Assembly: GCF_018860745.1 (NCBI RefSeq)
Contig: NZ_JAHKPY010000002.1
Span: 62,001-126,000 of the forward strand
Source: Zobellia uliginosa
Lineage (GTDB): Bacteria; Bacteroidota; Bacteroidia; Flavobacteriales; Flavobacteriaceae
Reading direction: 5' to 3'
Length of the DNA stretch: 64,000 nt
The notes below the pieces were generated by a model. The model ran no database searches. It was not told the origin of the DNA and worked only from the letters and a program-made list of their open reading frames with translations. Made by a program: the position numbers and the translations under genes. Positions 36,341 through 59,569 of this stretch are shown one piece after another (within the stretch, counting starts at the first letter, position 1; every line of letters starts with the position of its first letter).

Positions 36341-36383
36341 TAAAAATAGTAGCATTGAAATTCTTAAAAAATGACGCATGTCA
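36341..36383 (-). promoter_or_regulatory. Promoter 1 of the exoprotein/cytochrome operon: TGA-N6-TCA site plus -7 element
   Basis: TGACGCATGTCA lies at 36372-36383. On the minus strand, after exactly 23 nt, TATTTTTA (36348 to 36341) matches the Bacteroidota -7 consensus TAnnTTTG at all but the last base. The start codon at 36,276 is 64 bases further on. Confidence 0.6.
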
Positions 36384-36419
36384 TAAAACTAAATTTGCTG
36401 CACTTTTAACGGTTCCGAG

Positions 36420-36462
36420 CAAAAATATGTGTCCATTTTATAGTTTGAAGTAACATATGTCA
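36420..36462 (-). promoter_or_regulatory. Promoter 2 of the exoprotein/cytochrome operon: TGA-N6-TTA site plus perfect -7 element
   Basis: Read on the minus strand, TGACATATGTTA (36462 to 36451) is one base off the palindrome. Exactly 23 nt later comes TATTTTTG (36427 to 36420), a perfect TAnnTTTG. Confidence 0.6.
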
Positions 36463-36537
36463 CATATAGATGACTTTTGGTTAAGGATTTGGTTGTTTCT
36501 TTAGACCTTTCATTTTTATCATAAAATTTCATCTACA

Positions 36538-36580
36538 TGACCTAGGTCATTCTCTAAGCTATGCACCTTGTCTAATTTTG
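36538..36580 (+). promoter_or_regulatory. hsp20 promoter: perfect TGACCTAGGTCA plus -7 element
   Basis: The 12-bp palindrome is at 36538-36549 and TAATTTTG, a perfect TAnnTTTG, at 36573-36580, with a 23-nt spacer. If the -7 element places the start of transcription near 36,585, the palindrome is centred near -41.5, the class II activator position of Crp/Fnr proteins. Confidence 0.75.
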
Positions 36581-36614
36581 GTCTTATATAATTGTTTAAC
36601 TAAAAATTAGAATT

Positions 36615-37049
36615 ATGTCACTAGCGAAATTTAACAAAAGGCCATGGGGAAACCTTATCACCCCGGATTTTTTCAACAGCGATGATTTTTTTAATGGTGG
36701 TTCCTGGTTGAATACAATTCAAGAACCTGCCATGAACGTTAAAGAAAACGATGATAATTTTGAAATTGAACTTGCTGCTCCCGGGTATGACAAGAAAGAT
36801 TTTAATGTAAGTATTGAGAATGGATGCCTGAATATTTCAGCGGAAAATTCAAACTCAAAAGAAGAGGAAGAAGATACTTATAGCCGGAAGGAGTTTAGTT
36901 ATACTTCTTTTCAAAAATCGCTCCGGTTACCAGAAAGTGTATTGGACGATAAAATAAAAGCTACCTACAAGGATGGCGTACTAAAATTTAAATTGGCAAA
37001 AAAAGAAGAAGCAAAAAAACACACTCCTAAAACGGTGGAAATTTCATAA
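36615..37049 (+). CDS. Hsp20/alpha-crystallin small heat-shock protein
   Basis: 144 residues. The alpha-crystallin domain spans about 35-135, with FEIELAAPGYDKKDFNVSI, KEFSYTSFQKSLRLPE and the closing DGVLKFKLAKKE. The usual C-terminal I-x-I motif is replaced by KTVEIS, which may serve the same purpose. It is a cytosolic holdase chaperone. It has its own promoter with the TGACCTAGGTCA palindrome. Confidence 0.93.
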   Translation: MSLAKFNKRPWGNLITPDFFNSDDFFNGGSWLNTIQEPAMNVKENDDNFEIELAAPGYDKKDFNVSIENGCLNISAENSNSKEEEEDTYSRKEFSYTSFQKSLRLPESVLDDKIKATYKDGVLKFKLAKKEEAKKHTPKTVEIS

Positions 37050-37243
37050 TAAGCACTAATCATTACAAATGCCTTCTTATCAAAACTTATATGCGTCCAT
37101 GTAGGTAAGTTTGATTTGAGGGCATTATTTTTTTATACATTTTTCTTTCCTAAATTTATGTGGCCCAAGTGTCATTGATTACACCATAATTGTTTTATTA
37201 GGATTTCAAACGCTATTTTAAAAGTATTATACCTGTGTTCATA

Positions 37244-37286
37244 TGACATATATCACAGGTATACTGGGTAATATGCGGTAATTTGT
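37244..37286 (+). promoter_or_regulatory. Promoter of the 37,323 gene: TGA-N6-TCA site plus -7-like element
   Basis: TGACATATATCA at 37244-37255 is followed after exactly 23 nt by TAATTTGT (37279-37286), a TAnnTTTG with an imperfect end. Confidence 0.55.
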
Positions 37287-37322
37287 ACACTAGTTCGTAT
37301 TCTCTTAGTAAAAAAATGTATT

Positions 37323-37913
37323 ATGATTAAGCAACTGGTATGGCTTATCTTATTTATAGGGCTCACTGGAGATTCAATTTCCAGCGTTACCACCCTTCAT
37401 TATGACATTGTAATGAAAGATAAGGTAATAGGCAGTTTAGACACCCATAAAAGAACAAAGGGTGACCTCACAACTTATGAAAGTTTCACGAGTATCAAAA
37501 CCAAACTATTAACAAAAATAGAAGTAGACTATAAATATGATGTAGCCTTCAACAAATCTTTACTCAGAAAGGCAAAAGTCAGTATTGTTGTTAATAACAA
37601 ACAGCATGCGGAAACCAGTACTTTATGGAAGGACCAACAATACCAAATTATTAAGAACAATAAGGAAAGTAGTATTCAGGACCCTATTCAATATACTACC
37701 ATCTTAATGTATTTTAAAGAACCCAAGCAAATAAAGCATTGCTATTCAGAACAAGATGGTACTATGAATACCATTATACCTCTCGGAAATAATAGTTACA
37801 AGAAAATTAATGCGAACGGTAAAGAGAACATTTACTTTTATAAAAATGGTACTTTGCAAAAAGCTAGTATTGATGGGGGTCTGGTAGATTTTGAATTAAT
37901 ACTACGTGAATAA
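37323..37913 (+). CDS. Exported hypothetical protein (DUF6134-like)
   Basis: 196 residues with a short hydrophobic N terminus (MIKQLVWLILFIGLTG) acting as signal peptide. The remainder is a beta-rich sequence beginning LHYDIVMKDKVIGSL, resembling the flavobacterial DUF6134 family of unknown function. It is followed 67 bases later by cardiolipin synthase and has its own Crp/Fnr-type promoter, so the two may be a stress-responsive unit. Confidence 0.7.
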   Translation: MIKQLVWLILFIGLTGDSISSVTTLHYDIVMKDKVIGSLDTHKRTKGDLTTYESFTSIKTKLLTKIEVDYKYDVAFNKSLLRKAKVSIVVNNKQHAETSTLWKDQQYQIIKNNKESSIQDPIQYTTILMYFKEPKQIKHCYSEQDGTMNTIIPLGNNSYKKINANGKENIYFYKNGTLQKASIDGGLVDFELILRE

Positions 37914-37980
37914 GTCTTATATTTTACTAAGCCAATCCATGAAAAGACTTTTTTTGAAGTAACCAAATCACGTCTTACAA

Positions 37981-39417
37981 ATGACCATTGCACTTTTTAT
38001 TTATTTTTCATTGGCCTTGTTCATGGTTATAAGGCTTTTGCTCTATGGCATACGTCCTACAAAGACATTGGGATGGCTTTTGGCCATTTTCACCATTCCC
38101 GTAGGTGGAATGTTATTTTACTTTGTTTTGGGTCGTAATAGGCGGAAAAACAAGTTTTATAGGCTTAAGAAAACGGAGGAAATATCAGCCTATCTTAAAA
38201 CTGTTGAAGATTATTATGATGATGTTGACAAAAATGAAGATTTAAATATTCCCCCTCCAATCAAGAGCCATATTAAATTGGTAAAGCTAATTGCCAAAAA
38301 CTCCAATTTTTTACCCAGTCTTGGTAATGAGATTACCATATTAAAAGATGGTCCAGCAACCTTTGAAGCCATTTTTAAAGCTTTGGAAAGTGCCCGTAAA
38401 TTTATACACATTCAATATTATATTTTTGAGGAAGGAGAATTGGCAAATCGGTTTTTGACCCTATTACGGCAAAAAAAGAAGGAAGGTGTAGAAATTAGAT
38501 TTTTGTATGATGGTTTGGGAAGCAATACGTTAAGTAAATCCTATTTAAATGATTTGGTTAATGCGGGTATAGAGGTATATAGTTTTTTACCCATTAGGTT
38601 TAAGCGGTTGCTGTCTTCCATTAATTATAGGAACCATAGGAAAATAGTAATCGTAGATGGTCATATTGCGTTTACCGGAGGTATTAACGTATCCGATAAG
38701 TATATTCATGGAGACCCTGTATTAGGGGTTTGGCATGATATGCACTTACGGTTGGAGGGGCCTATTGTAAATAGTTTGCAAGCGGTATTTGCCATGGATT
38801 GGAATTTTGCCAGTGGTAAGGATGACATTCTAACGTTAAGTTATTTTTCCGCAATTCCTAAAGTAGGCACTTCAATTGTACAAACGGTTTCAAGCGGTCC
38901 CGATTCTGATTTTTCATCTGTACACCAACTTTATTTTTCCTTGATCAATAGGGCAAAAAAATATGTGTACATCGTAAACCCCTATATTATTCCAGGGGAA
39001 GCACTTATGGAAGCATTACAAGTTGCAGCTTTAGGCGGAGTTGATGTTAGGATTCTGCTTTCTTCCAATTCGGATAGTTATTTAGTGAAATGGAGCGTGC
39101 AATCTTACTTTGAGGCTTTTTTAGAAGCGGGAATTAAGATATATCAATATCCAGATGGTTTCCTTCATAGTAAAGTAATGTTCTCGGATGATCAATTAAC
39201 GACAATAGGTACGGCTAATTTGGATGTTAGGAGCTTTGAACAGAACTATGAGGTAAATGTATTGGCCTATGATAAAGAGCTTACACAGCAGCTAAAGCAT
39301 GATTTTTTGAACGATTGTAAAATAAGCCATCAATTAGATTATTCAGAATTCAAGAAAAGACGGAAACTGGACCGTTTAAAAGAAGGCTTCGCTAAAGTCT
39401 TTAGTCCAGTTTTATAA
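37981..39417 (+). CDS. cls: Cardiolipin synthase (phospholipase D superfamily)
   Basis: 478 residues. Two N-terminal membrane helices (about 3-25 and 35-55, the second including LAIFTIPVGGMLFYFVLGRN) are followed by two phospholipase D domains. The first HKD motif is NHRKIVIVDG (His 219), the second LHSKVMFSDD (His 396) followed by GTANLDVRSFEQN. It joins two phosphatidylglycerol molecules into cardiolipin at the inner membrane. The position among stress genes suggests membrane remodelling. Confidence 0.92.
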   Translation: MTIALFIYFSLALFMVIRLLLYGIRPTKTLGWLLAIFTIPVGGMLFYFVLGRNRRKNKFYRLKKTEEISAYLKTVEDYYDDVDKNEDLNIPPPIKSHIKLVKLIAKNSNFLPSLGNEITILKDGPATFEAIFKALESARKFIHIQYYIFEEGELANRFLTLLRQKKKEGVEIRFLYDGLGSNTLSKSYLNDLVNAGIEVYSFLPIRFKRLLSSINYRNHRKIVIVDGHIAFTGGINVSDKYIHGDPVLGVWHDMHLRLEGPIVNSLQAVFAMDWNFASGKDDILTLSYFSAIPKVGTSIVQTVSSGPDSDFSSVHQLYFSLINRAKKYVYIVNPYIIPGEALMEALQVAALGGVDVRILLSSNSDSYLVKWSVQSYFEAFLEAGIKIYQYPDGFLHSKVMFSDDQLTTIGTANLDVRSFEQNYEVNVLAYDKELTQQLKHDFLNDCKISHQLDYSEFKKRRKLDRLKEGFAKVFSPVL

Positions 39418-39488
39418 TATGGTAATGATTTATATCCTCTTTTAATAGCGGTCTGTTTCGTATATTGATAAACCAAGAAAAGTTTAAA

Positions 39489-40250
39489 ATGAATATAGGT
39501 CTTGTTTTATCTGGAGGAGGAATAAGGGGTGTTGCGCATATAGGAGCTATCAAGGCCTTGGAAGAGTATGGGATTTTTCCGACCCATATTTCAGGAACCA
39601 GTGCCGGAGCTATTGTTGGAGCATTGTACGCAAGTGGGGCCAATTGGTCAGAGATACTTCATTTTTTTAAGACCATTCCTTTATTTCGTACTAAGAAATA
39701 CGCACGTAGCAAGCCTGGTTTTTTAGACACTGAAAAGTACTATGAAAACTTCAAGCAATTTTTTCCCGAAGACGACTTTGGAGCGTTAAAAAAACCACTT
39801 TACGTTACCGGTACGGATATTATTAGAGGAAAACTCAAAATATTTCACAAAGGACAGGTTATACGGCCCGTACTTGCTTCGGCTTCATTTCCGGGAATGT
39901 TCACACCCATAAAAATCGGAGATGCATATTATGTAGATGGGGGAGTATTGAACAATTTTCCTATTGAACCGCTTAAAAATAACTGCGATAAAATTATTGG
40001 GAGCTATGTAAATCCTCTTAAGAAAATCAGAATTGAAGATTTAAAACATTCGTATACCGTAGTTGAACGGGCATATAAGCTAAAGTCTGCATCTGAGTCC
40101 TTACTGAAGTTTAGTGAATGTGATATGATTATCTTACCGGAAGGTCTATCGGAATTTGGAACGTTTGAAATGAATAGTGTTGATGTAATATTTGATTTGG
40201 GTTATTTGGCAGCTAAAAAAATCCTCGATAAAAATGGAGGTGTACTCTAA
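39489..40250 (+). CDS. Patatin-like phospholipase
   Basis: 253 residues. Glycine-rich oxyanion motif LVLSGGGIRGVAHIG at the N terminus, nucleophile Ser 38 in GTSAG, and Asp 150 in VDGGVLNNFP complete the catalytic dyad. I start at the ATG at 39,489 (MNIGLVLSG), because family members begin there. It is a cytosolic or membrane-associated lipid acyl hydrolase of the bacterial patatin (RssA/YchK) type, and its position after cls suggests a shared role in lipid turnover. Confidence 0.9.
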   Translation: MNIGLVLSGGGIRGVAHIGAIKALEEYGIFPTHISGTSAGAIVGALYASGANWSEILHFFKTIPLFRTKKYARSKPGFLDTEKYYENFKQFFPEDDFGALKKPLYVTGTDIIRGKLKIFHKGQVIRPVLASASFPGMFTPIKIGDAYYVDGGVLNNFPIEPLKNNCDKIIGSYVNPLKKIRIEDLKHSYTVVERAYKLKSASESLLKFSECDMIILPEGLSEFGTFEMNSVDVIFDLGYLAAKKILDKNGGVL

Positions 40251-40298
40251 AATAGAGGAACCTAATTTGGTATGTACTGGAATACTAAATCTTAAACA

Positions 40299-40341
40299 TG
40301 ATTTTTGTCATGTTTCTATAAGGTTGACAATCATATATTTG
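40299..40341 (+). promoter_or_regulatory. Promoter of the LOV-kinase operon: TGA-N6-TCA site plus perfect -7 element
   Basis: TGATTTTTGTCA at 40299-40310 lies in a longer inverted repeat (AAACATGA and TCATGTTT). Exactly 23 nt later TATATTTG (40334-40341) matches TAnnTTTG perfectly. The first gene of the operon starts at 40,356, so the leader would be very short. If the operon's own regulator binds here, this is autoregulation. Confidence 0.7.
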
Positions 40342-40355
40342 ATACACAACCTAAC

Positions 40356-40517
40356 ATGGACACTGTTATCTCAAAATCAATCGACAAGGTATTTTGGCCA
40401 AATTATTTGGTCTGGATTATTATGCTCGTTTTTTTAGGATTTATTTATCAATTGGGTCTTCTGTTTTTCTTCAATATAGTCTACTTTGTAAGACTCTTAT
40501 CTCTTTCGCAATGGTAG
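40356..40517 (+). CDS. Small membrane protein upstream of the LOV histidine kinase
   Basis: 53 residues, MDTVISKSIDKVFWPNYL followed by a single long hydrophobic stretch (about 18-46) and a short basic tail. The TAG stop overlaps the ATG of the kinase (ATGGTAG at 40511-40517), implying coupled translation. It is the first frame after a good promoter. I know no family. It could be a membrane anchor or accessory subunit for the kinase, which lacks membrane segments of its own. Confidence 0.55.
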   Translation: MDTVISKSIDKVFWPNYLVWIIMLVFLGFIYQLGLLFFFNIVYFVRLLSLSQW

Positions 40518-43500
40518 AAAAAATCACAGATAACGATCTCTTTAAGGGTATTTTTGAATCTTCGGTAGAAGGTATATTGGTGGTAGCTAAAAATGGTCGT
40601 ATTTTCAAGGCTAATGCTTCAGTTGAAAAAATGTTCGGTTACAAGTCAGGAGAACTATTGCAAAAAAATGTAGAAGAGCTGGTTCCTCAAGAACTTAAGA
40701 AATCTCACACAAGCTTCCGAAGAGATTTTTCGAAAGCACCTACAAGTAGGGCAATGGGAAGAGGAGGAGATTTATGGGGGCTTAAAAAAGATGGAACTAA
40801 AATACCTTTGGAAATAAGCCTTAATCCTACAAAAATTAATGACGAGCTTGTTGTTATTGCGTTTGTAATTGATATAACGGATAGATATTTGGCTTTAAAG
40901 AAAGCAGCCATTAATATAGAAAAAATGAATGAGGCTCAAAGCCTTGCGCATGTGGGTAGTTGGGTCTGGAACCTGCAAACAAATGAAAGAAGTTGGTCTG
41001 ACGAGTTCTATAGGATATGTGGTTTGTACCCGGGCGATGAGCGACTTACGGCTAACACCGCATCAGAATTTATTCACCCGGAAGATCGCAAATCTACTGC
41101 AGAAGCTGTTGCTTTCGCAATAAATAACCGTAAGCCTTTTTCATATAAAAAAAGAATAGTTAGAACAGATGGTGCTATACGATATATAATGGCTCATGGT
41201 AGGGCCTCTTATGATGATAAAGGTACTCCGTTGGAGTGGTTTGGAACAATTCAGGATATTACTGAACAAAGAAATACCGAACAACTATTAGAGGATAATT
41301 TGTCTAAAAATAGAGCTCTTTTGGAAGCATTACCGGATATGATGTTCATTTTAGATCATGAAGGCAAATTTTTGGACTGTTATGCCCCAGAACCAGAAAA
41401 ACTTTTTGCACCTCCAGCTTCTCTAATTGGGGGGCATATAAAGGAATTATTGCCTCAGCATATTTTTAAGGCTGTCCGAGAGGGAATGGATAAAGCCATA
41501 CGTACGAATGCAATTGAATTTGTTGAGTATGAGTTTGAACTAGAAAATGTTAGACATTTTTACGAGGGTAGAATTGTACCTATGGGCAAAAACAAACTTC
41601 TGACCATCATTAGAGATATTACGGAAGAAAAATCTATAGAAAATATCCTTTATGTCCGTAATCGGGCTTTGGCGGCAACCGCAAACGGAATTATTATCTG
41701 CGATGCACGAAAGCCTGATTTTCCTATAATTTACGGTAACGAGGCTTTTACAACAACAACTGGTTATGAAAAGGAAGATTTTATGGGGAAGAACTGTCGT
41801 TTCTTACAAGGTGATGATAGGGGCCAGGCGGAAATTGAAATAATGTCTAAAGCTGTCAAAAAGGGTGAAGATTGCAGTGTAATATTACGTAATTATAAAA
41901 AAGACGGTTCTTTATTCTGGAATGAAATTAGTATAACGCCCATTTACAATTCCAAAAGAGTGCTAACTCATTTTGTTGGTGTACAGAATAATGTTACTGC
42001 CCATAAAGTAGAGGAAATATTTAAAATAGGGCAGTCTCATGTTATGGATATGATTATTCAACATGAACCTTTAAAAAGTATAGCCTTTAAGATTATAGAA
42101 ATTATAGAAACAGCTATTCCGAACTGTAAGGGTTCCATTCTTTTATTGGATAAGGATTCTGGTAGATTAGAGAAATTGGCAGCACCAAGTCTTTCGGAAA
42201 CTTATACACATGCTTTAGAAAAGATGTTCGTAGCGCCAGATAATGGATCTAGTGGTACGGCCGCATATTTAAAAGAGGAAGTAATTGTTTTAGACACGTT
42301 GAGCGATCCTCTCTGGAAATCATTTAGAGAATTGGCTTTGAAGGATAATATAAGTGCATGTTGGTCTTTTCCTATATTTTCTACCAATAAGGAATTACTG
42401 GGCACTTTTGCTATCTATTTTCCGATTTCAAAAAAACCGTTGGATACAGAAAAAGAAATCATTTATATTATTACCCAAGCTATTAGCGTGGCTATAGAAC
42501 AACATAATGCCAGTGTTGCATTAAAAAACAGTAAAGAGGAACTTTTTTATTATGCAGAGTCTTTAGAAAATAAAGTAGCCGATCGTACGGTAGAGCTAAA
42601 GGATATGGTTCAAAAATTAGTAGAATCCAACTTAAGCCTAGAAGATCAAATTCAAATTACAAAATCAGCGGAGAACAGTGCTATTACCAGTCAAAAGTTA
42701 TTGGAGACTATTTTTAAAAATTTCCCTGGTGGTTTTGTTGGAGTAGTTGATCTAGATTTACGCGTCGTATTTCTTGAAGGTGAAGATTTGGAAGCCCTTG
42801 GTTTTAAAGAATCAATACATGTTGGTGATACAATAGATGATTTAGAAGTAGTGGCTGCTGATGTCCGAAAAAAAGTAACGCAAAAAATTAAAAAAACCTT
42901 AAAGGGAGAGCACTGCACTTTTGAATTGATAATTCAGGAAAAATCTTATCTGGTCAATACTACACCATTGTTCAATGAAGACAGGGAAGTTGAACAGGCG
43001 TTAGTGGTTTATAACAATATTTCTGACCAGAAAAGGGTAGAAGTAGAGATTAGGAATACACTAGAGAAAGAAAAAGAGCTTAATGAGCTAAAATCTCGCT
43101 TTATCTCAATGGCTTCCCACGAATTTAGAACTCCCTTAAGTGCCATTCTGTCGGCAACAAATCTTATAGAGAGACAAAATGAAGCAGGTCTGGAAGAGAA
43201 GAGATTGAAGTATATAACTAAAATCAAGACAAGCATAAAAAACCTTGTAGCTATTCTAAACGACTTTTTGTCCTTAAGCAAATTAGAGGAAGGAAAAGTA
43301 ATAGCAATACCTACTAAATTTGATTTTGTTGAATTCTCTAATTCGTTGCTAGAAGAGATTTCAGGAATCAAAAAACAAGGACAGGTAATAAATGTCATCA
43401 ATAACAAGCCTATGATAGAAGTAGGGCTTGACATTAAATTACTGAGGCATATTGTATACAATTTGGTATCAAATGCTATTAAATATTCGGACGATAACAC

Positions 43501-43789
43501 AAAAATCACCCTAAAAATAGAATCCATTGGTACCAAGCTTTTTATAGAGGTTACAGATCAAGGTATTGGTATTCCTGCCGAGGACCAAGGCTATCTGTTT
43601 CAGCGTTTTTATAGAGCAAAAAACGCAACTAATTTTCAGGGTACTGGCTTAGGGTTGAATATCGTAAGGCAGTATGTGCTCTTAATGGAGGGTAATATTA
43701 GTTTTCAAAGCGAGCTTGACCAAGGCACAACATTTACCGTAGAACTCCCCTTAAATCTATTGAAAAATGAAAAAAGTACTACTTATTGA
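40511..43789 (+). CDS. Multi-PAS hybrid sensor: LOV blue-light-type histidine kinase
   Basis: 1,092 residues from ATG 40,511 (MVEKITDN); longer starts read through the small membrane gene and are unlikely. Order: PAS (about 10-120), PAS with PAC (about 140-260), PAS (about 265-375), LOV (about 390-500), GAF (about 510-670), coiled coil, PAS-like (about 725-840), kinase core. The LOV domain has NCRFLQ with the photoactive Cys at about 429, RNYKKDGSLFWNEISITPI and FVGVQNNVT, giving the flavin-contacting Asn and Gln residues. The kinase H box ASHEFRTPL has His 870, and the VSNAIKYSDD, DQGIGIP and GTGLGLNIV boxes follow. The response regulator overlaps its end by 23 bases. Blue-light sensing is a firm family inference; the output is not shown. 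Confidence 0.9.
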   Translation: MVEKITDNDLFKGIFESSVEGILVVAKNGRIFKANASVEKMFGYKSGELLQKNVEELVPQELKKSHTSFRRDFSKAPTSRAMGRGGDLWGLKKDGTKIPLEISLNPTKINDELVVIAFVIDITDRYLALKKAAINIEKMNEAQSLAHVGSWVWNLQTNERSWSDEFYRICGLYPGDERLTANTASEFIHPEDRKSTAEAVAFAINNRKPFSYKKRIVRTDGAIRYIMAHGRASYDDKGTPLEWFGTIQDITEQRNTEQLLEDNLSKNRALLEALPDMMFILDHEGKFLDCYAPEPEKLFAPPASLIGGHIKELLPQHIFKAVREGMDKAIRTNAIEFVEYEFELENVRHFYEGRIVPMGKNKLLTIIRDITEEKSIENILYVRNRALAATANGIIICDARKPDFPIIYGNEAFTTTTGYEKEDFMGKNCRFLQGDDRGQAEIEIMSKAVKKGEDCSVILRNYKKDGSLFWNEISITPIYNSKRVLTHFVGVQNNVTAHKVEEIFKIGQSHVMDMIIQHEPLKSIAFKIIEIIETAIPNCKGSILLLDKDSGRLEKLAAPSLSETYTHALEKMFVAPDNGSSGTAAYLKEEVIVLDTLSDPLWKSFRELALKDNISACWSFPIFSTNKELLGTFAIYFPISKKPLDTEKEIIYIITQAISVAIEQHNASVALKNSKEELFYYAESLENKVADRTVELKDMVQKLVESNLSLEDQIQITKSAENSAITSQKLLETIFKNFPGGFVGVVDLDLRVVFLEGEDLEALGFKESIHVGDTIDDLEVVAADVRKKVTQKIKKTLKGEHCTFELIIQEKSYLVNTTPLFNEDREVEQALVVYNNISDQKRVEVEIRNTLEKEKELNELKSRFISMASHEFRTPLSAILSATNLIERQNEAGLEEKRLKYITKIKTSIKNLVAILNDFLSLSKLEEGKVIAIPTKFDFVEFSNSLLEEISGIKKQGQVINVINNKPMIEVGLDIKLLRHIVYNLVSNAIKYSDDNTKITLKIESIGTKLFIEVTDQGIGIPAEDQGYLFQRFYRAKNATNFQGTGLGLNIVRQYVLLMEGNISFQSELDQGTTFTVELPLNLLKNEKSTTY

Positions 43790-44834
43790 AGACAATTTAG
43801 ATGTACGCGAAATGACCGCGGAAATTCTAGAACTTGAAAATTATGAAGTATCTACTGCAAAAAACGGTAGGATTGGCATAGAAAAAGCAAAATCTTTTAT
43901 GCCCGATGTTATCCTATGCGATATAATGATGCCCGTTGTAGATGGCTATAGTGTTTTCAAAGAATTAAATGAAGATGAATCTACCGCTAGCATTCCTTTT
44001 ATTTTCTTAACGGCGAAATCTGAAAAATCGGATTTCCGTAAGGGAATGACCATGGGTGCAGACGATTATTTGACTAAGCCATTTGAGGCACAGGATTTAG
44101 TAGAAGCTATAGAGGCAAGGCTCAAAAGAAGTTCTTTTTTACGGAAAGAATTTTCAAGAAATGTTAAAGGCATTAATGAATTTATTAAAGAAGCTTCAAA
44201 ATATCAAAACTTAAAAGACCTTTCGGATAATCGGGATTTGTCTCATTATAAAGCTAAGGAAGAGATTTTTTCAGAAGGAAGTATGGCGCATAGTTTATAT
44301 TTTATTCAAAGTGGAGAAGTCAAAACATACAAGCATAATGAAAATGGTAAAGAGTATGTGACCGGTATGTTCAAAGCTGGAGATTTTATAGGTCAACTCT
44401 GTGTTCTAGGAGATTCTGGACTGTACACAGAAACAGCAGTAGCACTTAATAATTGTGAGATATGCAGTATTCCTAAGAATGATTTTACACAATTATTATT
44501 CAATAATAAAGAGGTTTCACATAAATTCATTGGTATGGTATCCAACAATGTGCTTCACATGCAAGAACAGCTTATGGGTATGGCTTTTGATTCGGTTAGG
44601 AAAAGAGCAGCTACTGCACTTCTGGAATTGTATGACAAAGGTCTTATTAAAGATGGTGATTTAGGCATAAGTATATCCAGAGAGGATTTTGCAGGTTTGA
44701 TAGGTACGGCCACGGAAACCGCTATACGGGTACTCTCTAGTTTTAAGGATAAAGGATTAATTCAATTAGGGGAGTCACGTAGAATTATACTTTCAGATAA
44801 AAAGCAATTACAGCAAGTTGCAGATTTTGGGTGA
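43767..44834 (+). CDS. Response regulator fused to Crp-type sensor and DNA-binding module
   Basis: 355 residues. A receiver domain (1-120) has the acidic pair ED, phospho-acceptor Asp 52 (ILCDIMMP), FLTAKSE and the KP motif. A linker precedes a cyclic-nucleotide-binding-type barrel (about 150-265, EEIFSEGSMAHSLYFIQSGE) and a Crp/Fnr winged helix (about 275-345, ISREDFAGLIGTATETAIR). The recognition helix keeps the Glu and Arg positions used by Crp/Fnr proteins to read TGA half sites. The start codon lies inside the kinase gene, so the two form a two-component pair. It is the prime candidate for the TGA-N6-TCA sites in this window. Confidence 0.9.
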   Translation: MKKVLLIEDNLDVREMTAEILELENYEVSTAKNGRIGIEKAKSFMPDVILCDIMMPVVDGYSVFKELNEDESTASIPFIFLTAKSEKSDFRKGMTMGADDYLTKPFEAQDLVEAIEARLKRSSFLRKEFSRNVKGINEFIKEASKYQNLKDLSDNRDLSHYKAKEEIFSEGSMAHSLYFIQSGEVKTYKHNENGKEYVTGMFKAGDFIGQLCVLGDSGLYTETAVALNNCEICSIPKNDFTQLLFNNKEVSHKFIGMVSNNVLHMQEQLMGMAFDSVRKRAATALLELYDKGLIKDGDLGISISREDFAGLIGTATETAIRVLSSFKDKGLIQLGESRRIILSDKKQLQQVADFG

Positions 44835-44941: not shown

Positions 44942-45523
44942 ATGGAAGAACCACATTTTTTGAACCACGTTTTTAAAGCCGATGAATTTTCTGTTGAAGA
45001 ACTGGAAAACATTATCCCAAAATTTAAAAAAGTTGTTTTTTCTAAAAATGATTATTTATTGGAAGAGGGTAAAACAGAGAACGATTATTGGTTTGTAGAG
45101 CGTGGTTTTGCCCGATCTTATGTGGTAGATACGGAAGGCAAAGACATCACTACGAATTTTTATTCCGAAGGCGATATTATTATTGATTGGACATCTTTTT
45201 TTCTCAGAAACCCCACTAGAGAAAATATTCAGGCTTTGACGGACTGTGTTTGTTGGCAATTAGATTTCAATACTTTTCAAGAACTCTTTCATGGAATACG
45301 AAGCTTTAGGGAACAAGGCCGTACTACGCTGGTAAATAGTTACTTCTCGTTAAAAAATCAAAGTGTTTCAATGATAGCGGATCAAGCATTAGAGCGTTAC
45401 AAAAAGTTGTTAAAGGATAAACCACATATTGTGCAAAATATATCCCTTAAACATATTGCTACTTATTTAGGGGTAACGGACACTTCTCTAAGTCGTATTC
45501 GCAAAGAAATTTCTGGAGGATAG
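44942..45523 (+). CDS. Crp/Fnr-family transcriptional regulator
   Basis: 193 residues: effector barrel (about 25-120, KNDYLLEEGKTENDYWFVERG) and a C-terminal helix-turn-helix (about 160-190, ISLKHIATYLGVTDTSLSRIRKEI). Ligand residues of cAMP-binding proteins are not evident. It lies directly behind the response-regulator/Crp hybrid, though 107 bases away, and could be a second regulator of the same sites or of the three small genes downstream. Confidence 0.83.
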   Translation: MEEPHFLNHVFKADEFSVEELENIIPKFKKVVFSKNDYLLEEGKTENDYWFVERGFARSYVVDTEGKDITTNFYSEGDIIIDWTSFFLRNPTRENIQALTDCVCWQLDFNTFQELFHGIRSFREQGRTTLVNSYFSLKNQSVSMIADQALERYKKLLKDKPHIVQNISLKHIATYLGVTDTSLSRIRKEISGG

Positions 45524-47752: not shown

Positions 47753-48082
47753 TTATTTATGTAGTTGAGCGTTTTTCTTTTTTAGGTCTTCTAGTTTTCG
47801 CTCCAGAGTAGCGATGATGTCGTCTGCTTTATAGCTCATGTTGCTAATAGTCTCATCTAATTTGTGCTCAAACTCTTCTTTCTTCTCGTTAGCTGATTTT
47901 GTCAGCTCATCTTTAGCGTGTGATACGCGGTCCGTTAAGTCATGTGTGGCATCCAAAGCTCTATCTTTTATTTTATGTCTGGTTTCTATCCCTTTTTCGG
48001 GAGCATATAAAATTCCGAAGCCTGCACCAATTGCTGCTCCCGTTAATAATGCTAGAAGTACATTTCCACTATCGTTTGACAT
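47753..48082 (-). CDS. YtxH-domain protein
   Basis: 109 residues. A glycine-rich membrane helix (LLALLTGAAIGAGFGILYAPEKG) is followed by a long charged helix (about 35-109) as in YtxH general-stress proteins. It is the first gene of a three-gene operon driven by a promoter with the TGACCTAGGTCA palindrome. Confidence 0.88.
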   Translation of the reverse strand: MSNDSGNVLLALLTGAAIGAGFGILYAPEKGIETRHKIKDRALDATHDLTDRVSHAKDELTKSANEKKEEFEHKLDETISNMSYKADDIIATLERKLEDLKKKNAQLHK

Positions 48083-48118: not shown

Positions 48119-48161
48119 CAAAATTAGCGTAGTTAATTTTTGGATATCATGACCTAGGTCA
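48119..48161 (-). promoter_or_regulatory. Leftward promoter of the YtxH operon at a shared palindrome
   Basis: The perfect palindrome TGACCTAGGTCA lies at 48150-48161. On the minus strand TAATTTTG (48126 to 48119), a perfect TAnnTTTG, follows after exactly 23 nt. Confidence 0.75.
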
Positions 48162-48192
48162 GGAAAATTAAAAATATCTACTTGTAATTTAG
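48150..48192 (+). promoter_or_regulatory. Rightward promoter of the 48,239 gene at the same palindrome
   Basis: From the same 48150-48161 palindrome, TAATTTAG (48185-48192) lies exactly 23 nt downstream on the plus strand, one base off TAnnTTTG. One symmetric site thus serves two divergent promoters with the same geometry. Confidence 0.6.
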
Positions 48193-48238: not shown

Positions 48239-48727
48239 ATGAATATGAACGTCCCAAAAACAGAACAAAAGCAAGTTTTTTTAAAGTCGTATAGTCAAAT
48301 TGTAGCCTTAGCAGAAGCCCTTAAAATTGTTCGGCAACTTGATCTTAATCAAATGTCTGTTTCCGTTATAGGTAATCTTGGAGAGGATTATATAAATGAT
48401 GATTCAGGGTTGACCACGGTTACCGATGAACTACAACTTTTTTTTAAAGGAATTTTAGGTGGGAGTACGGATTTCGATACTTTTTATAACCCGGAACTAG
48501 GTAGGCTTTTTGTGGTTGGTTTTTTAGTTTCAACCTTTAAAAACACGGTTGGTAAAAGAGCTATTGGAGTATTGTCCGGAGGACCTTATGGTATATTAAG
48601 AGGACTTGGGGTAAAGGAAGCGGAAGCCGTTTCCAGCGTAAAAAAATTAAACGATGGAACTTATCTTCTAGTAGCTAGAGGAGACCGTAGGACCATTGAT
48701 AAGTTGCAAAAAGAACTTACGAACTGA
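48239..48727 (+). CDS. Hypothetical stress-associated protein
   Basis: 162 residues with a glycine-containing middle (GVLSGGPYGILRGLGV) and no signal peptide. The layout, an N-terminal alpha-beta part then a hydrophobic loop then a short alpha-beta tail (YLLVARGDRRTIDKLQKEL), recalls DUF1269/general-stress-17M-like proteins, but I cannot assign it firmly. It is divergent from the YtxH operon and shares its palindromic regulatory site. A start two codons further on (48,245) is equally possible. Confidence 0.65.
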   Translation: MNMNVPKTEQKQVFLKSYSQIVALAEALKIVRQLDLNQMSVSVIGNLGEDYINDDSGLTTVTDELQLFFKGILGGSTDFDTFYNPELGRLFVVGFLVSTFKNTVGKRAIGVLSGGPYGILRGLGVKEAEAVSSVKKLNDGTYLLVARGDRRTIDKLQKELTN

Positions 48728-48800: not shown

Positions 48801-48845
48801 TGACCTAGGTCATAGTTTTCCAACATATTTAGCAGCATATTTATA
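48801..48845 (+). promoter_or_regulatory. Palindromic site before the sigma-like gene
   Basis: Perfect TGACCTAGGTCA at 48801-48812. The nearest -7-like sequence is TATTTATA at 48838-48845, a 25-nt spacer and a poorer match than at the other promoters. Confidence 0.55.
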
Positions 48846-48867: not shown

Positions 48868-49638
48868 ATGGACACTCTAGAATATTACGAAAGCAAAAAG
48901 GACTTTAACGTATTTGTAGCGAGTACCTTCTCAGACCTTCTAAAATATAGACAAAAGGGAAAACAGTCTTTGTTCAATAATTTATTGTTTAAAGACCTCC
49001 ATCAGGTAAAACGCTATATCAAAAAAAGAGTAGCAACCGCTTTGAGTAAAGGAAACCTTCCGAAAGGAAAGTACAAAGTAGATGATTTTATCGATCAACT
49101 TTTTATTACCGTTTATGATAATTTTAATGAGGTAGCGACCAAGGAAGATTTACACCCATGGTTATTTAAGAAGGCCAACGGGCTTCTAGAGGATTCAATT
49201 ATGGAGGAAGAGTTTGATGATTATTTCCTTAAAAATATAGATGATTATTCTAAGCCGGAATGGGATGAGATGGAAGAAAAGTTTAGTACGGATGGTGATG
49301 GTGATTTGGTCATGTTAGATGAGCTAGACGATATTTCATTACCAAAAAACGATTATGTATTGAACCATGTGTTTATAGAGGATGATAAGAAAGAATTTAT
49401 GGAAAAACTAGACCGGGAATTGGGCGAGGAAAGTATTAGAAAACATACCCACATGATTTTACATTTCTTGCCATTACCAATGCGCACTGTTTTTGAGTTG
49501 GCTACTGAGTATGAGTTTTCTGTAAACCAGATTGCCATGATTCGTAATCAAAGTGTTAAAGAGGTTAAGAAACTTTTAGATAACGCTCGTAAAACTCTTG
49601 AAGCCAGTCTTTTTAATAGATATGGTACACAGAAATAA
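48868..49638 (+). CDS. Sigma-70-like (ECF-type) factor with long acidic linker
   Basis: 256 residues. A sigma region 2-like stretch (DDFIDQLFITVYDNF, about 71-110, with HPWLFKKANGLLED) is followed by an unusually long acidic linker (about 115-165). A region 4-like helix-turn-helix is at about 195-245 (PLPMRTVFELATEYEFSVNQIAMIRNQSVKEVKKLL). This is the order in ECF sigma factors but longer, and the match is remote. No anti-sigma gene is adjacent. The palindromic site upstream makes it a candidate second-level regulator. Confidence 0.7.
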   Translation: MDTLEYYESKKDFNVFVASTFSDLLKYRQKGKQSLFNNLLFKDLHQVKRYIKKRVATALSKGNLPKGKYKVDDFIDQLFITVYDNFNEVATKEDLHPWLFKKANGLLEDSIMEEEFDDYFLKNIDDYSKPEWDEMEEKFSTDGDGDLVMLDELDDISLPKNDYVLNHVFIEDDKKEFMEKLDRELGEESIRKHTHMILHFLPLPMRTVFELATEYEFSVNQIAMIRNQSVKEVKKLLDNARKTLEASLFNRYGTQK

Positions 49639-53104: not shown

Positions 53105-53109
53105 AAAAA

Positions 53110-53148: not shown

Positions 53149-53157
53149 ACTCATAAA

Positions 53158-54561: not shown

Positions 54562-54586
54562 GAATTATATATTTAATGTTAAACAT

Positions 54587-55899
54587 TTAATTTATATCTC
54601 TTACAAGTCTTACATAATTGTATGTACGTTCACCGCCTTCACCTAAATTTCCGCCTTCGTATTTGGTATCGAACCGTACGGCACCAGCACCATGAAAATC
54701 TTTTCCTTCGTTGTTGACTGCCCTGCCAAAAGCAACATACCAGGCGTAAAAGTAAGGCTCGCCACTTCTAAAATGCGCAGAAGTGCTGGTCCAATAATAA
54801 CCAAAATCATCAGTGCCGGCTTCATTAGAAATCGGTGTGCAATTGAATATAGGGTCAATAGCTGGACCTTTATTTTTACTGTCTTTGGCATTTGGTGCAA
54901 AAGAGTAGTCTACAATACCTTGTAATTCTTTTACATTCGGCAAACGCCAATCGGTATAGTCAGCTATGTTAGCATTTTTAGCATAAACCAAAGCATCTTT
55001 CCAATTTAGACCTTTTCCGCTATCTCCTTTTGTCCACATAAGGCCTGTAGCGTTATCAGAAATAGTTCCGTCTTTATTATCGGTAAAATTATTTATTCCA
55101 TAAACAGTACCTCTAACTGCACGCACATGCTTCAGTAGTGGGTTGCCCGTGGGTCTTTCTCCATTTTGGGGAGGTCTTCCATTTTCAGGAGGTGCCCCTT
55201 GGCCTGGAGGAGGCTGGCGATTTGGTGGCGGACCTTTATGGTCTTTCTCCTTATCTGGCGCAGCTGCCGGGTAGGCCTTTATATGCCCTGTAGCATGGTT
55301 TACACCAAAAGCAGCATTGTAACCACCTTCTTCTGTGTGACCAATATTGTATTGCTAGACCAGTATTGTTCACTTTTATCTACCTCTTCATTGTTGACAA
55401 GGGAAAAATAATTGGTATCTAAATACGGCCATCCAGAATCAAAATTACTAATGGAAAATAATTCTTTTGCAGATGGTATTCGCCAATCATCATGACCACC
55501 AAGTTCTAAATTTTCACAATAATCTTTGGCATCTTGCCAATCAAAGCCTTCTGAACTAGGGATTTCTTGCCACATGAGCCCTGAGTTATTATCTGTAATA
55601 GTACCATTCCCATTTTTGGTAAAGGACATTTTTTCGCCTTTCAGATAATTAGCATCTTGACCATAAAGAGAATCACTTTCAGAGATAGCATCAAGCACAT
55701 TTCCATCATTGTCATACAAAGTGTACTGTCCCGTTGCAATCTGTACATAGTTGTTAGTTTTCAGACTATCCTTAGAAATAGTGATTTGAGATTTTTTGTT
55801 CTCCTTATTTTTACAACCAGAAACAAATGCCAATGCTGAAAACCATATGATGGACATACTTAGCAAATTTGCCGTTTTTATTGTTGCTAAATTTTTCAT
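54587..55899 (-). pseudogene. DUF1566-repeat lipoprotein, frameshifted
   Basis: The first half (from 55,899) is a lipoprotein with FVSGC and a DUF1566 unit (GLMWQEIPSSEG, DDWRIPSAKELFSI), ending early at 55,300. Reading one base differently near 55,345-55,355 the sequence continues as HTEEGGYNAAFGVN, a proline/glycine-rich linker and a second DUF1566 unit (GLMWTKGDSGKGLNW, DWRLPNVKELQGI) to 54,587. Together that would be about 437 residues, matching the intact 426-residue paralogue at 57,721-59,001 from end to end apart from the linker. One lost base explains the break. It may be a genuine pseudogene or a base-call error; no other disruption is seen. Confidence 0.85.
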
Positions 55900-55914
55900 G
55901 ATTATTTTCTGAAG

Positions 55915-57534
55915 TTAATTACCTCCTGGACCGCCAGTACCTGGTTCTCCTGTTGGTCCCATTTCTCCTCCAATTTGTGTAACCGTGCTACTTATTGTAA
56001 ATGAATCACCTGAGTCTGTTCCTCCACTATAAGTTCCAGAGGTGTATAATCCATTAACTTCAGTGCCATTGCTTACACTTCCTCCGGTATAGATAGTATA
56101 CGTTTGATCTGTTTCTAATTTTGCGTTGGAATAAATAATTGTATTTACGCTATAGGGTACTTCATAAGTAAGGGCTTCCGTACCATCTTCCGATTGTATG
56201 TTCAATAACTGATTTACATTGACACCATCAAAGATTACTGAGTTTTGTGTGCTTTCGCTCTCTGTAGGGAATGAAGTATTTAGTGCTAACCCTAAAATTG
56301 TTCCTCCAGTTATTTTAAATGTATTATCATCACAATCAAAACTGCCATCGGGCTCATCGGTACGAACTGCTATGGCAATGGTCGTACCACCTGTAACGGT
56401 AATTCCTCCGTTACTATCAATAGCATCATTAAGCGTGGCGTAAACATAAATATTTCCTCCATTAATATATATATCATCACCTGCATTAAGACCGTCATCG
56501 TATGAATTGATGTTCATTGTACCGTCATTAATGGTCAATGTTCCTTTTGCTTCTATACCTTCGCCTTCTGAAGTAGTTATTTCAAAATCACCTCCATTAA
56601 TTGTTACATATGGCGTAATGGAATCATCGGGTTCTTCCTCGTCGTCAATGTCATACGAAGCTGCAATTCCATCATCAATTGCATTAATAGTAAAGGTTCC
56701 GTCGTTGATAATAATATAGCCTTCTTCACAATCCATTGCATCGCTATCTGCTGTTAAATTAAGTGTACCTCCGTCTACAATAATGTAATCGTTGGTGTGT
56801 ATGGCATCAGATGCTGCTTCTGTAACTGTGATTGTTCCACTAATTACCCTAATATAATCATCACTTGCGATACCGTGCTTGTAGTTTCCTGCAACGTTAA
56901 GTGCTCCTGAACCGCTAAAAACCAATTGTCCTTCGCTAAAAAATGTTGCTTTTGCATCTTCATCATCAGGAATATTACTGTAAGTTGATGCATCGGTCAG
57001 GCTGTTTGTACCTTCCAAAACAACAAAAATGGTTTTAGAAGATTGGATGTTGACCGCAGGACCATCAGTATTCGCGATACTTAAATCACTTAACGATAAT
57101 TTGAATTTCTTATCACTGTAAATTTTTAGCATACCATCTGTTGTTGTGCCCGATACTTCGTAAGCCACTTCTGAAATAGTGGAATTAATAGTAACATCGG
57201 CACCATCTTGTGTAATAACCACATCATCAGGAACAGGGTTTGTAATTGAAGCCGAAGCGTTAGAAAATACAATTTGTACGGTATTTTCAAAAGTTGCATT
57301 TTCTACTAAATCATCTTCATCCGCACCTGTGTTATCGGTATCTCCTTCAGCCGTTCCAGAGGTGTTTGTGTTTGTTATGGTAATAGAAGTGTCATCATCA
57401 ACTACTTCTTCATCTACCGTTACAGTATCTTCATCATCATCATCGCTACATGAACTAAAAGTTAATATTGAAGCGCTAAATGCTAAAGCAATAAGGAGTA
57501 AATTGATATTCTTTTTAATTATTATATTTTTCAT
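55915..57534 (-). CDS. Cthe_2159-like carbohydrate-binding beta-helix lipoprotein
   Basis: 539 residues. Lipoprotein signal (LTFSSC, Cys about 29), an acidic D/E/T-rich spacer, then a long run of beta-helix repeats with aspartates at turns: SDAIHTNDYIIVDGG, SDAMDCEEGYIIINDG, GLNAGDDIYINGG, DAIDSNGGITVTGG (about 215-415). This pattern matches the Cthe_2159 family of calcium-binding polygalacturonate-binding proteins. The tail is Gly/Ser/Thr rich (GPTGEPGTGGPGG). It sits between two DUF1566 lipoproteins, so a shared surface complex is likely. Ligand inferred. Confidence 0.83.
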   Translation of the reverse strand: MKNIIIKKNINLLLIALAFSASILTFSSCSDDDDEDTVTVDEEVVDDDTSITITNTNTSGTAEGDTDNTGADEDDLVENATFENTVQIVFSNASASITNPVPDDVVITQDGADVTINSTISEVAYEVSGTTTDGMLKIYSDKKFKLSLSDLSIANTDGPAVNIQSSKTIFVVLEGTNSLTDASTYSNIPDDEDAKATFFSEGQLVFSGSGALNVAGNYKHGIASDDYIRVISGTITVTEAASDAIHTNDYIIVDGGTLNLTADSDAMDCEEGYIIINDGTFTINAIDDGIAASYDIDDEEEPDDSITPYVTINGGDFEITTSEGEGIEAKGTLTINDGTMNINSYDDGLNAGDDIYINGGNIYVYATLNDAIDSNGGITVTGGTTIAIAVRTDEPDGSFDCDDNTFKITGGTILGLALNTSFPTESESTQNSVIFDGVNVNQLLNIQSEDGTEALTYEVPYSVNTIIYSNAKLETDQTYTIYTGGSVSNGTEVNGLYTSGTYSGGTDSGDSFTISSTVTQIGGEMGPTGEPGTGGPGGN

Positions 57535-57720
57535 CGTTCTTTATCTTTATAGTATAAATATTAGTAAATATTTAATTGCAATTTTGAGTTTTCAGTGAAT
57601 GCCCTTTAGTTCTCTGTAAACTAGATGTTATGATCTATTTCTGTTTTTATTAATTTTCGAAAATTGTGTGCTTGTATGTGTTGCATAGAATAATCATGGC
57701 TTGCATTAGTTGAGTTATTA

Positions 57721-59001
57721 TTATAAATCTCTAACCAACCTTACATAATTATTGATTCGTTGCGCATCACCTTGAGGGCCGTGGCCTTTGGGCCAATCTT
57801 TAGGGTCACCAATTTTTGGGTCACTACGCTGCGCACCTGCTCCGTGTACATCCATCCATTTACCATCCATATATCCCATGGCCCTACCAAAAGAAACATA
57901 AGATGCGTTTCTACCTTTTGCCTCAGTAGACCAGTTAGAATGTGTTGTACTAGACCAATAAAAAGGGTAGTCTTTTTGACCAGCTTCATTTATGATTTCA
58001 GAACAATTAAAAAGTGGGTCTATTGCTGCGGATTCTGAAGTGTTAGGGGAACGGGAATAATCAACGATACTTTGTAGTTCTTTTACGTTGGGCAACCGCC
58101 AATCAGAATACCCTGCAAATTCATAGTTTTCGGCATAGTTTAATGCTTCTTGCCATAAGATGCCTTTTTGGTTGTCGTTGTGCATCCACATGAGACCTGT
58201 AGCCTTATCTGAGATGGTGCCATTGCCGTTATCTTCAAAATTATTGATACCGTAATTCTTGTTCCCTCTTACATAGGTTACAAAAAACGTTTTATCACCG
58301 GGACCAAATGGCATCCTTAATCCGTAACCTTTTATACGACCATCGGCAAAATTGACGCCGAATAACAAATCTCCACCCACATACATGTTAGAACTAGCAT
58401 ATTGAGAGTCTATAATTCGTTCTCTTGCACTGGTGTCTCCGTAAGCGAATTTGAAATAATCGGTATCTATAAAAGGAATTAACCCTTCTAAAGATGAAGA
58501 ATTATAACCGCTAGGGTCAACACCACTAAAAACTATTAAAGAAAATTGTTCTTTAATGGTAGGCAATCGCCAATCTGTATAGCCACCTAAATTGAAAGAA
58601 GCAGCACCAGCTGCTGCCTCTTTATAAGTCATTTTATCACTTGCCGTAATTCTTCCATCGCCATTTGTGTCGGGGCTCTGCTGCCACATTAAACCCGTAA
58701 CTAGATCAGTTACCGTACCATCATCATTATCTTTGTATTTAGGGATGCTACCAGGGTAATTTGCATTTTGTCCATAAAAATCATCACCAATAGCTGGTGC
58801 TTTAATTTCAGTACTGTTGTCGTAGAATTTACTCTGATTTGTACCAACAATAGGGTAATCTAAATTACTCTTGTCATTATGTACAATACTATTAAGCCTT
58901 GAGTTTTTACCAGAGCTCAATAACAAAACAATGACTATGAGAACACAACAAAACCCGAATACGATTGATGTCTTTTTTTTAGGTTTTACAATCCGTTTCA
59001 T
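57721..59001 (-). CDS. DUF1566-repeat lipoprotein/exported protein
   Basis: 426 residues with an N-terminal membrane helix (about 12-31, VFGFCCVLIVIVLLL) and two DUF1566 units, GLMWQQSPDTNGDG with DWRLPTIKEQF, and GLMWMHNDNQKGILW with DWRLPNVKELQSI. DUF1566 resembles lectin-like surface domains; function is not known. It lies 21 bases behind dps in the same direction, so it is likely in the dps transcript. The frameshifted paralogue lies two genes further on. Confidence 0.82.
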   Translation of the reverse strand: MKRIVKPKKKTSIVFGFCCVLIVIVLLLSSGKNSRLNSIVHNDKSNLDYPIVGTNQSKFYDNSTEIKAPAIGDDFYGQNANYPGSIPKYKDNDDGTVTDLVTGLMWQQSPDTNGDGRITASDKMTYKEAAAGAASFNLGGYTDWRLPTIKEQFSLIVFSGVDPSGYNSSSLEGLIPFIDTDYFKFAYGDTSARERIIDSQYASSNMYVGGDLLFGVNFADGRIKGYGLRMPFGPGDKTFFVTYVRGNKNYGINNFEDNGNGTISDKATGLMWMHNDNQKGILWQEALNYAENYEFAGYSDWRLPNVKELQSIVDYSRSPNTSESAAIDPLFNCSEIINEAGQKDYPFYWSSTTHSNWSTEAKGRNASYVSFGRAMGYMDGKWMDVHGAGAQRSDPKIGDPKDWPKGHGPQGDAQRINNYVRLVRDL

Positions 59002-59022
59002 AATGGTTCTGTTTAATTTAAA

Positions 59023-59499
59023 TTATGCTAAATGTGAACGTAGCATCCAAGCAGTTTTCTCATGTTGTTCCATCAACCCAGTAACATAATCACTAATACC
59101 TTCAGCTTGCCATTTGTCTGAAATTGGTTTTATTTCTTCTCGTAGAAAAATGATAATGCTTTCGTGGTCTTCTAATAATTCTGCGAATACGCTTTGACTG
59201 TCATTGCCGCCTTTCGCCTTTTCCGTAAGATGTGTCAATTGAGAATAGTCTTTTAATGTTGCTGGTACATAATGACCCAATGCACGTATTTTTTCAGCTA
59301 CAGTATCAACCACCTCTTGTTGCTCTTCATACAACGTTTCTAGATAAAGGTGTACCGAATGAAAATCGGGTCCTTCTACGTTCCAATGGAAGTTTAGAGT
59401 TTTTGAATAGAGTACAAATTCATCTGCTAATATTTTTGATAATTGATCTGCAATAGCTTGTCTATTTTCTGCTGAAATTCCAATGTTAGGTGTTTTCAT
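59023..59499 (-). CDS. dps: Dps-family DNA-protection / iron-storage protein
   Basis: 158 residues, usual length for Dps. The ferroxidase site is spread over LNFHWNVEGPDFHSVHLYLETLYEEQQEVVDTVAEKI (about 40-75), with the conserved His, Asp and Glu; the C-terminal MEQHEKTAWMLRS helix is typical. It forms a 12-subunit shell that oxidises iron with hydrogen peroxide and shields DNA. Its promoter carries the same Crp/Fnr-type site as the stress genes 11-23 kb away. Confidence 0.93.
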   Translation of the reverse strand: MKTPNIGISAENRQAIADQLSKILADEFVLYSKTLNFHWNVEGPDFHSVHLYLETLYEEQQEVVDTVAEKIRALGHYVPATLKDYSQLTHLTEKAKGGNDSQSVFAELLEDHESIIIFLREEIKPISDKWQAEGISDYVTGLMEQHEKTAWMLRSHLA

Positions 59500-59526
59500 T
59501 TTTGTAGATTTTTATATATGATATAC

Positions 59527-59569
59527 CAAAGTTATTGAGATTCAAAAACGATTATACTGATACAAATCA
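59527..59569 (-). promoter_or_regulatory. dps promoter: TGA-N6-TCA site plus perfect -7 element
   Basis: TGATACAAATCA lies at 59558-59569. On the minus strand TAACTTTG (59534 to 59527), a perfect TAnnTTTG, follows after exactly 23 nt. The dps start codon is at 59,499. Confidence 0.7.

Follow-up and report, generated by a model that had tools for sequence, protein, structure and literature searches.

Class II promoters dependent on Crp/Fnr proteins are known, for example, from FNR and CRP of Escherichia coli, and −41.5 is the class II activator position. The FixL-FixJ-FixK cascade links a PAS histidine kinase to a Crp/Fnr-type activator, and the DosS/DosT-DosR system, whose regulator DosR is of the NarL type, places Hsp20, many Usp proteins and low-energy functions of the mycobacterial dormancy regulon under two-component control. 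The Bacteroidota have an unusual promoter box, and transcription activation is little mapped in them. The LovK-LovR system of Caulobacter acts as a negative regulator through the sigma-T pathway (PMC4844311). Here, a 64,000-nucleotide stretch of the Zobellia uliginosa genome (the window) is analysed, in which TGA-N6-TCA palindromes of Crp/Fnr type stand a constant 23 nucleotides before a promoter box of Bacteroidota type. These composite sites are probably class II activator sites of a receiver-Crp response regulator encoded in the window, acting with a partner histidine kinase, together with an FNR-like protein on A/T-centred sites.

Composite sites and their spacing

Each composite site consists of the palindrome, a 23-nucleotide gap and the box TANNTTTG. 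The initial annotation described seven palindromes and eight boxes in the window; on rechecking, all seven stand where they were claimed and all eight boxes begin exactly 23 nucleotides on, including the boxes on both sides of the palindrome at 48150. The palindromes at 36372, 36538, 37244, 40299, 48150 and 59558 are exact, and that at 36451 (TGACATATGTTA) has one mismatch. Five of the eight boxes match TANNTTTG perfectly, in agreement with the earlier count, while the other three are imperfect (TATTTTTA at 36341, TAATTTGT at 37279 and TAATTTAG at 48185). A further gap-23 site, at 48801, had been missed. Within the window the palindrome alone is not enriched (18 found, 19.3 expected from shuffles); the composite, with at most two mismatches allowed, is enriched, with 26 found against 14.2 expected and none of 100 shuffles reaching 26.

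A scan of the 4.86-Mb genome that holds the window (G000; the window is contig C10, 62–126 kb) for TGA-N6-TCA followed by TANNTTTG at gaps of 8 to 38 nucleotides yields 69 composite matches, compared with 43 for the reversed control. Gap 23 accounts for 23 of the 69, and each of the other 30 gaps holds zero to five (mean 1.53; Poisson p = 1.7e-19), so that the 23-nucleotide spacing is enriched genome-wide, as the initial annotation expected. Fourteen of the 23 exact sites lie in a 131-kb segment that overlaps the window (C10 98.5–229.8 kb). The regulon is indeed dispersed, but its extent is not the 23 kb first described: it spans at least about 130 kb plus dispersed sites. With the looser box TANNTTTR (at most one mismatch), and counting only matches outside genes and at most 200 nucleotides from a start codon, 174 kb of C10 contain 26 sites at gap 23 versus a mean of 1.17 at each of the other gaps.

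In Flavobacterium psychrophilum, the box TAnnTTTG occupies positions −12 to −5 relative to mapped transcription starts (PMC9723704). Carrying this box position over places the palindrome at −47 to −36, with its centre at −41.5, and the class II geometry proposed earlier is thereby supported. Leaving aside the searched TGA, TCA and box letters, the bases fixed in at least 60% of 30 C10 sites are C −44, T −42, A −41, G −39 and T −35, and no further spacer position in these sites exceeds 60%.

Conservation in relatives

Orthologues were matched as genes of at least 100 amino acids with at least 55% identity to G000 in the regions retrieved from four congeners (G002, G004, G006 and G008). The gap-23 site is kept in 61 of 62 orthologous promoters belonging to 21 site-bearing genes, versus 6 of 150 belonging to 56 control genes, all six in G006 and G008 (Fisher p = 5e-45). 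The identical conservation test finds no conserved site at gaps 20, 21, 24, 25 and 26, and two at gap 22. Together, the gap statistics and the conserved promoters reject a chance origin of the constant geometry, as had been argued from the window. Across orthologues, TGA/TCA, gap and box are constant, while the spacer and the six middle bases change, the latter at times in both halves at once; the hsp20 palindrome, for example, is TGACCTAGGTCA in G000 versus TGATTTAAATCA in G002.

Among the promoters that the initial annotation proposed to compare, those of hsp20 and ytxH keep the site. Specifically, the hsp20 orthologues of G002, G006, G008 and the more distant G018 are all preceded by a gap-23 site, no close hsp20 orthologue being found in G004, which has the regulator, and the palindrome shared by ytxH and the 162-amino-acid gene has gap 23 on both sides in G000, G002, G004, G006, G008 and G018. 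The same six genomes carry a gap-23 site upstream of the kinase-regulator operon. For dps the site is present in G002, in G004 and before an 89% relative in G018, and none precedes the 60–61% Dps relatives of G006 and G008, which are located elsewhere. The cardiolipin-synthase-like operon retains gap 23 only in part. Additionally, the 48801 site has gap 23 with a CAnnTTTA box in all four congeners, and a palindrome with two flanking boxes near the regulator, among unannotated genes, also occurs in Kriegella aquimaris and two Maribacter species.

The partial conservation concerns the site at 37244, whose box departs from TANNTTTG and instead matches TAnnTTGY, the alternative (SM5) promoter box reported for F. 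psychrophilum (PMC9723704). This DUF6134 box reads TAATTTGT or TAATTTGC and lies at gap 23 in G000, G002 and G004 and at gap 24 in G006 and G008, so its register is not constant. The site is the weakest of the series and does not hold the equal membership first given to it; because its box resembles the SM5 box, the Crp-type site there may serve a second promoter class.

Farther from Zobellia, G018, whose regulator is 57% identical, has 28 gap-23 sites in 60 kb versus a mean of 0.70 at other gaps, with a T run that reaches −33. In a block of another order, mostly Dyadobacter, loci of at most 13 kb around the regulator were searched with at most one box mismatch; gap-23 sites, 43 in total, are present in 37 of 40 loci, in a Cytophagales-rich set of close relatives in which gap 11 also reached 22.

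The candidate regulator

The protein acting at these sites is most likely the REC-cNMP-HTH_Crp response regulator at 43767–44834. Its Pfam matches are PF00072 (7e-29), PF00027 (6.2e-23) and PF13545 (6.2e-14), and residues 158–334 match Crp structures; the protein is a member of the Crp/Fnr superfamily with a cNMP-binding fold and a Crp helix-turn-helix. The receiver Asp, Thr/Ser and Lys, read by eye, are conserved in 16 aligned regulators. In cAMP-binding Crp, an Arg/Ser pair in the cassette contacts the phosphate; in the regulator (GQLCVLG...YTETAVAL), as read by eye from the sequence alone, no Arg-Ser pair is seen at this place. The window encodes three proteins with a cNMP domain and G000 encodes 15, of which the response regulator, an FNR-like protein and the protein at 44942 were tracked across genomes.

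Nine Zobellia genomes (G000–G008) were compared. Full-length regulator orthologues (86–90%) are present in the four congeners named above, and G001, G003, G005 and G007 have only partial matches. Gap-23 sites number 38 in G000 and 46, 39, 30 and 27 in the other genomes with the regulator, compared with 9, 12, 11 and 10 in those without it (exact p = 0.008); the reversed pattern gives zero to two sites per genome. Moreover, the composition of the palindrome follows the regulator. When a perfect box is required, sites starting with TGAT are left out and an orthologous site is counted separately in each genome, G/C occupies the central four bases in 43 of 64 TGACNNNNRTCA gap-23 sites with the regulator versus 0 of 9 without it. 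The sites, their spacing, their conservation and their co-occurrence with the regulator are thus shown by computation.

Hsp20 and Dps relatives of at least 60% identity are not found in the four Zobellia genomes without the regulator, which suggests that regulator, target genes and sites form a single accessory module. MlaE there is only 27–28% identical, which leaves no MlaE orthologue to compare. A loss of the ytxH site in these genomes, considered as a natural knock-out, was rejected because their copies are a second, core paralogue, and they serve only as paralogue controls: the site precedes the module copies in 6 of 6 genomes and the core paralogue in 0 of 10.

A regulator fragment at a contig end of Cyclobacterium qasimii, which belongs to a different order, is 77% identical to that of Zobellia, versus 69–70% for two Maribacter species; horizontal transfer or contamination is possible.

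The sensor kinase and its input

The genes of kinase and regulator overlap, and the start of the kinase is set at 40511 because four orthologues are 1092 amino acids long. The protein combines HisKA and HATPase_c with a LOV domain, left out of the initial annotation, that has the adduct-forming Cys and the motifs NCRFLQ, LRNY, FWN and GVQ. Phototropins, aureochromes and blue-light-activated histidine kinases are among the 60 PDB matches listed for this domain, of which the strongest is the sensor-domain diguanylate cyclase 8c05 (E = 4.5e-33). Across genomes, LOV domains were called by the NCRFLQ motif alone, and further motifs were read from the sequences; in an aligned sequence labelled Z. 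uliginosa, H replaces the usual Q of GVQ.

The stimulus is less clear than the output. Blue light is doubtful as the input because the adduct-forming Cys is lost in Maribacter aquimaris and M. polysiphoniae (NFQFLQ or NFHFLQ), which retain regulator and sites, and because the regulators of about 40–50% identity in other Flavobacteriaceae and Dyadobacter mostly adjoin kinases of about 370–640 amino acids without a LOV motif, Winogradskyella vidalii being an exception. The chances are about even that the kinase instead senses redox, oxygen or energy state, with LOV as a flavin redox sensor or a relic. Both observations favour this input, as does the resemblance of the targets to a low-energy response; retention of NCRFLQ in five Zobellia genomes, G018, Kriegella aquimaris and Cyclobacterium qasimii speaks against it. 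Such an input is compatible with class II activation by the response regulator, since it concerns the stimulus only. As distant regulators mostly sit beside LOV-less kinases, the receiver-Crp output and the promoter geometry seem older than the LOV input.

Alternative binding proteins and modes of action

Several observations weigh against activation of the sites by the response regulator. The genus comparison sets five genomes against four of the same genus, and these are not independent of one another; across the family the difference is smaller, the median being 15 sites where a regulator is present (9 genomes) and 7 where it is absent (19 genomes; p = 0.007), and three of the latter reach 20–22. 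The targets hsp20, dps and MlaE are partly absent where the regulator is absent, so that sites may have been gained and lost along with the genes. In addition, the box at 37244 is displaced by one base in two congeners, and the HTH helices of the regulator (TATETAIRV) and of the FNR-like protein (TATESCIRI) are nearly alike, so that some A/T-centred sites of the cluster could belong to the latter.

This FNR-like protein (229 amino acids, G000:C1:499400-500023, with an N-terminal CxxC) is encoded in all nine Zobellia genomes. It is unlikely that it binds all the sites while the response regulator acts elsewhere, although the near-identical recognition helix, the gap-23 site TGA(C/T)AATTGTCA that immediately precedes its own gene in 9 of 9 genomes and the 9–12 gap-23 sites that persist in genomes without the response regulator would fit. 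Against this, G/C-centred TGACNNNNRTCA sites are confined to genomes with the response regulator, 14 of the 23 exact G000 sites cluster within 131 kb round its gene, and its operon carries a site in six of six genomes. The FNR-like protein probably uses A/T-centred sites of identical geometry on other genes. The earlier proposal of a Crp-type regulator encoded in the window is thus retained, since the response regulator fits, but a single regulator is not; two are probable.

That a bound Crp-type dimer represses by blocking polymerase is very improbable. A dimer at −41.5 adjoins the −33 region of the promoter, as repression would allow; repression, however, tolerates variable site positions, and a gap constant to a single base is what activator contact requires. 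It is most improbable that one of the short Crp-like proteins of the window (44942–45523 or 18574–19164) is the regulator. Of the two, 44942 was compared across genomes and is rejected: its gene adjoins that of the response regulator, but it does not track the sites. Orthologues of 82–84% identity are present in each of the four genomes that have no response regulator, and the best matches in the site-bearing G006 and G008 reach 36% and 46%.

Predicted target genes

The coordinates of sites, regulatory genes and predicted targets in the window are collected in Table 1. Beyond the window, the first genes behind sites encode four Usp proteins, carboxymuconolactone-decarboxylase-like, WG-repeat and PEP-synthase-like proteins, an ATP-synthase alpha/beta-family subunit, an outer-membrane efflux protein, enolase, MlaE, a chloride channel, and YflT-like, EF-hand, rhodanese/metallo-beta-lactamase and HlyD proteins; 4 of 20 scanned first genes have no Pfam match. 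The G000 boxes of enolase (TACCTTCA) and of the PEP-synthase-like gene (GAGATTCG) are weak. In G018, the site-bearing genes include MlaE, PEP-synthase-like, YtxH, LOV kinase, patatin and Hsp20, and also PfkB, hibernation-factor-like S30AE, Usp, ROK and PLDc. Collectively, the targets look like a survival and energy-saving set, which may represent a dormancy or general stress response. Within the window, DUF6134, PLDc and patatin genes are likely one operon, judged by their spacing, and the exoprotein gene has no orthologue in the fetched stretches of relatives.

Table 1. Composite sites, regulatory genes and predicted targets in the window
Feature	Coordinates	Strand	Basis or context
Composite site, palindrome 36372–36383, box TATTTTTA 36341–36348	36341..36383	-	before PKD/malectin exoprotein gene 33250–36276
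Composite site, TGACATATGTTA and box TATTTTTG	36420..36462	-	before PKD/malectin exoprotein gene 33250–36276
Composite site, TGACCTAGGTCA-N23-TAATTTTG	36538..36580	+	before hsp20
Hsp20 small heat-shock protein, predicted target	36615..37049	+	Pfam PF00011
Composite site, box TAATTTGT (TAnnTTGY type)	37244..37286	+	before DUF6134 gene
DUF6134 (37323–37913), PLDc cardiolipin-synthase-like (37981–39417), patatin (39465–40250)	37323..40250	+	Pfam
Composite site, TGATTTTTGTCA-N23-TATATTTG	40299..40341	+	before kinase-regulator operon
Multi-PAS/GAF histidine kinase with LOV domain	40511..43789	+	Pfam; longest reading frame from 40394
LOV domain (PAS_9, residues 432–536 of long reading frame; NCRFLQ)	41687..42001	+	Pfam and motif
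Response regulator REC-cNMP_binding-HTH_Crp, proposed activator	43767..44834	+	Pfam
YtxH-like protein, predicted target	47753..48082	-	PF12732
Single palindrome 48150–48161, boxes 23 nucleotides off on both sides	48119..48192	both	ytxH (-) and 162-amino-acid gene (+)
162-amino-acid protein without Pfam match, predicted target	48239..48727	+	site 48119..48192
Composite site, TGACCTAGGTCA and box CATATTTA	48801..48843	+	before 256-amino-acid gene 48868–49638
Dps/ferritin-like protein, predicted target	59023..59499	-	PF00210
Composite site, TGATTTGTATCA-N23-TAACTTTG	59527..59569	-	before dps

Downstream of dps lie three Lcl_C-domain genes and a Cthe_2159 carbohydrate-binding protein gene (54587–59001, minus strand). 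Two MCRA-family genes stand close to each other (60846–62786 and 63544 to beyond 64000), the second of which (63544–65145 in the joined stretch) has an upstream gap-23 site, also in G002 and G004. Elsewhere in the window, fructose-1,6-bisphosphatase occupies two reading frames, 11930–12247 (N-terminal part) and 12472–12984, a split (11930–12984) that represents a frameshift, a pseudogene or a sequencing error.

Proposed mechanism

We infer binding, activation rather than repression, phosphorylation and a stimulus (light, redox or other) from the sequences. The sites would work at sigma-A-type promoters as class II activator sites, with a regulator dimer binding TGAC-CTAG-GTCA-like palindromes centred at −41.5 and recruiting RNA polymerase to the box at −12 to −5. 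The upstream LOV/PAS/GAF histidine kinase would phosphorylate the receiver Asp and thereby switch on binding, and the pair would activate its own operon through the 40299 site. The predicted output is a stress and low-energy regulon comprising Hsp20, Usp, Dps, YtxH, PEP-synthase-like, enolase, MlaE, cardiolipin-synthase-like and other proteins, while the FNR-like protein would act on other genes via A/T-centred palindromes at the same position.

A broader reading, tentative and rather less probable than its negation, is that the Bacteroidota possess a general stress response independent of sigma factors, in which a receiver-Crp family spread over Flavobacteriales and Cytophagales works with exchangeable sensor kinases (LOV in Zobellia and its kin), switches on entire survival regulons, among them divergent gene pairs served from one shared dimer site, and answers to blue light or flavin redox state.

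Comparison with known systems

Regulon, likely regulator and sensor can be read here from DNA alone, down to single-base spacing, which offers a specific hypothesis on the genes under LOV-kinase control in marine flavobacteria. No receiver-Crp regulon in Bacteroidota was recognised in a literature search whose coverage left out most subscription journals. Crp/Fnr relatives are known as class II activators; a receiver-Crp regulator combined with a LOV kinase and a Bacteroidota promoter over a large regulon is, as far as limited searches show, a new combination.

The sites resemble class II Crp/Fnr promoters in their TGA-N6-TCA core and in their centre at −41.5, the latter by way of the box position mapped in F. 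psychrophilum. They differ from those of E. coli in that the box is TANNTTTG and not TATAAT, the regulator has a receiver domain and a central CTAG is frequent. As in Caulobacter LovK-LovR, a LOV histidine kinase is tied to a stress pathway, but in Zobellia the response regulator itself looks like the DNA-binding activator. The predicted two-component control of Hsp20, Usp and other low-energy functions is shared with the DosR regulon, whereas the Zobellia output domain is of the Crp type and not of the NarL type. Finally, a PAS histidine kinase is predicted to stand upstream of a Crp/Fnr-type activator, as in FixL-FixJ-FixK, but here receiver and Crp-type output are joined in a single protein.

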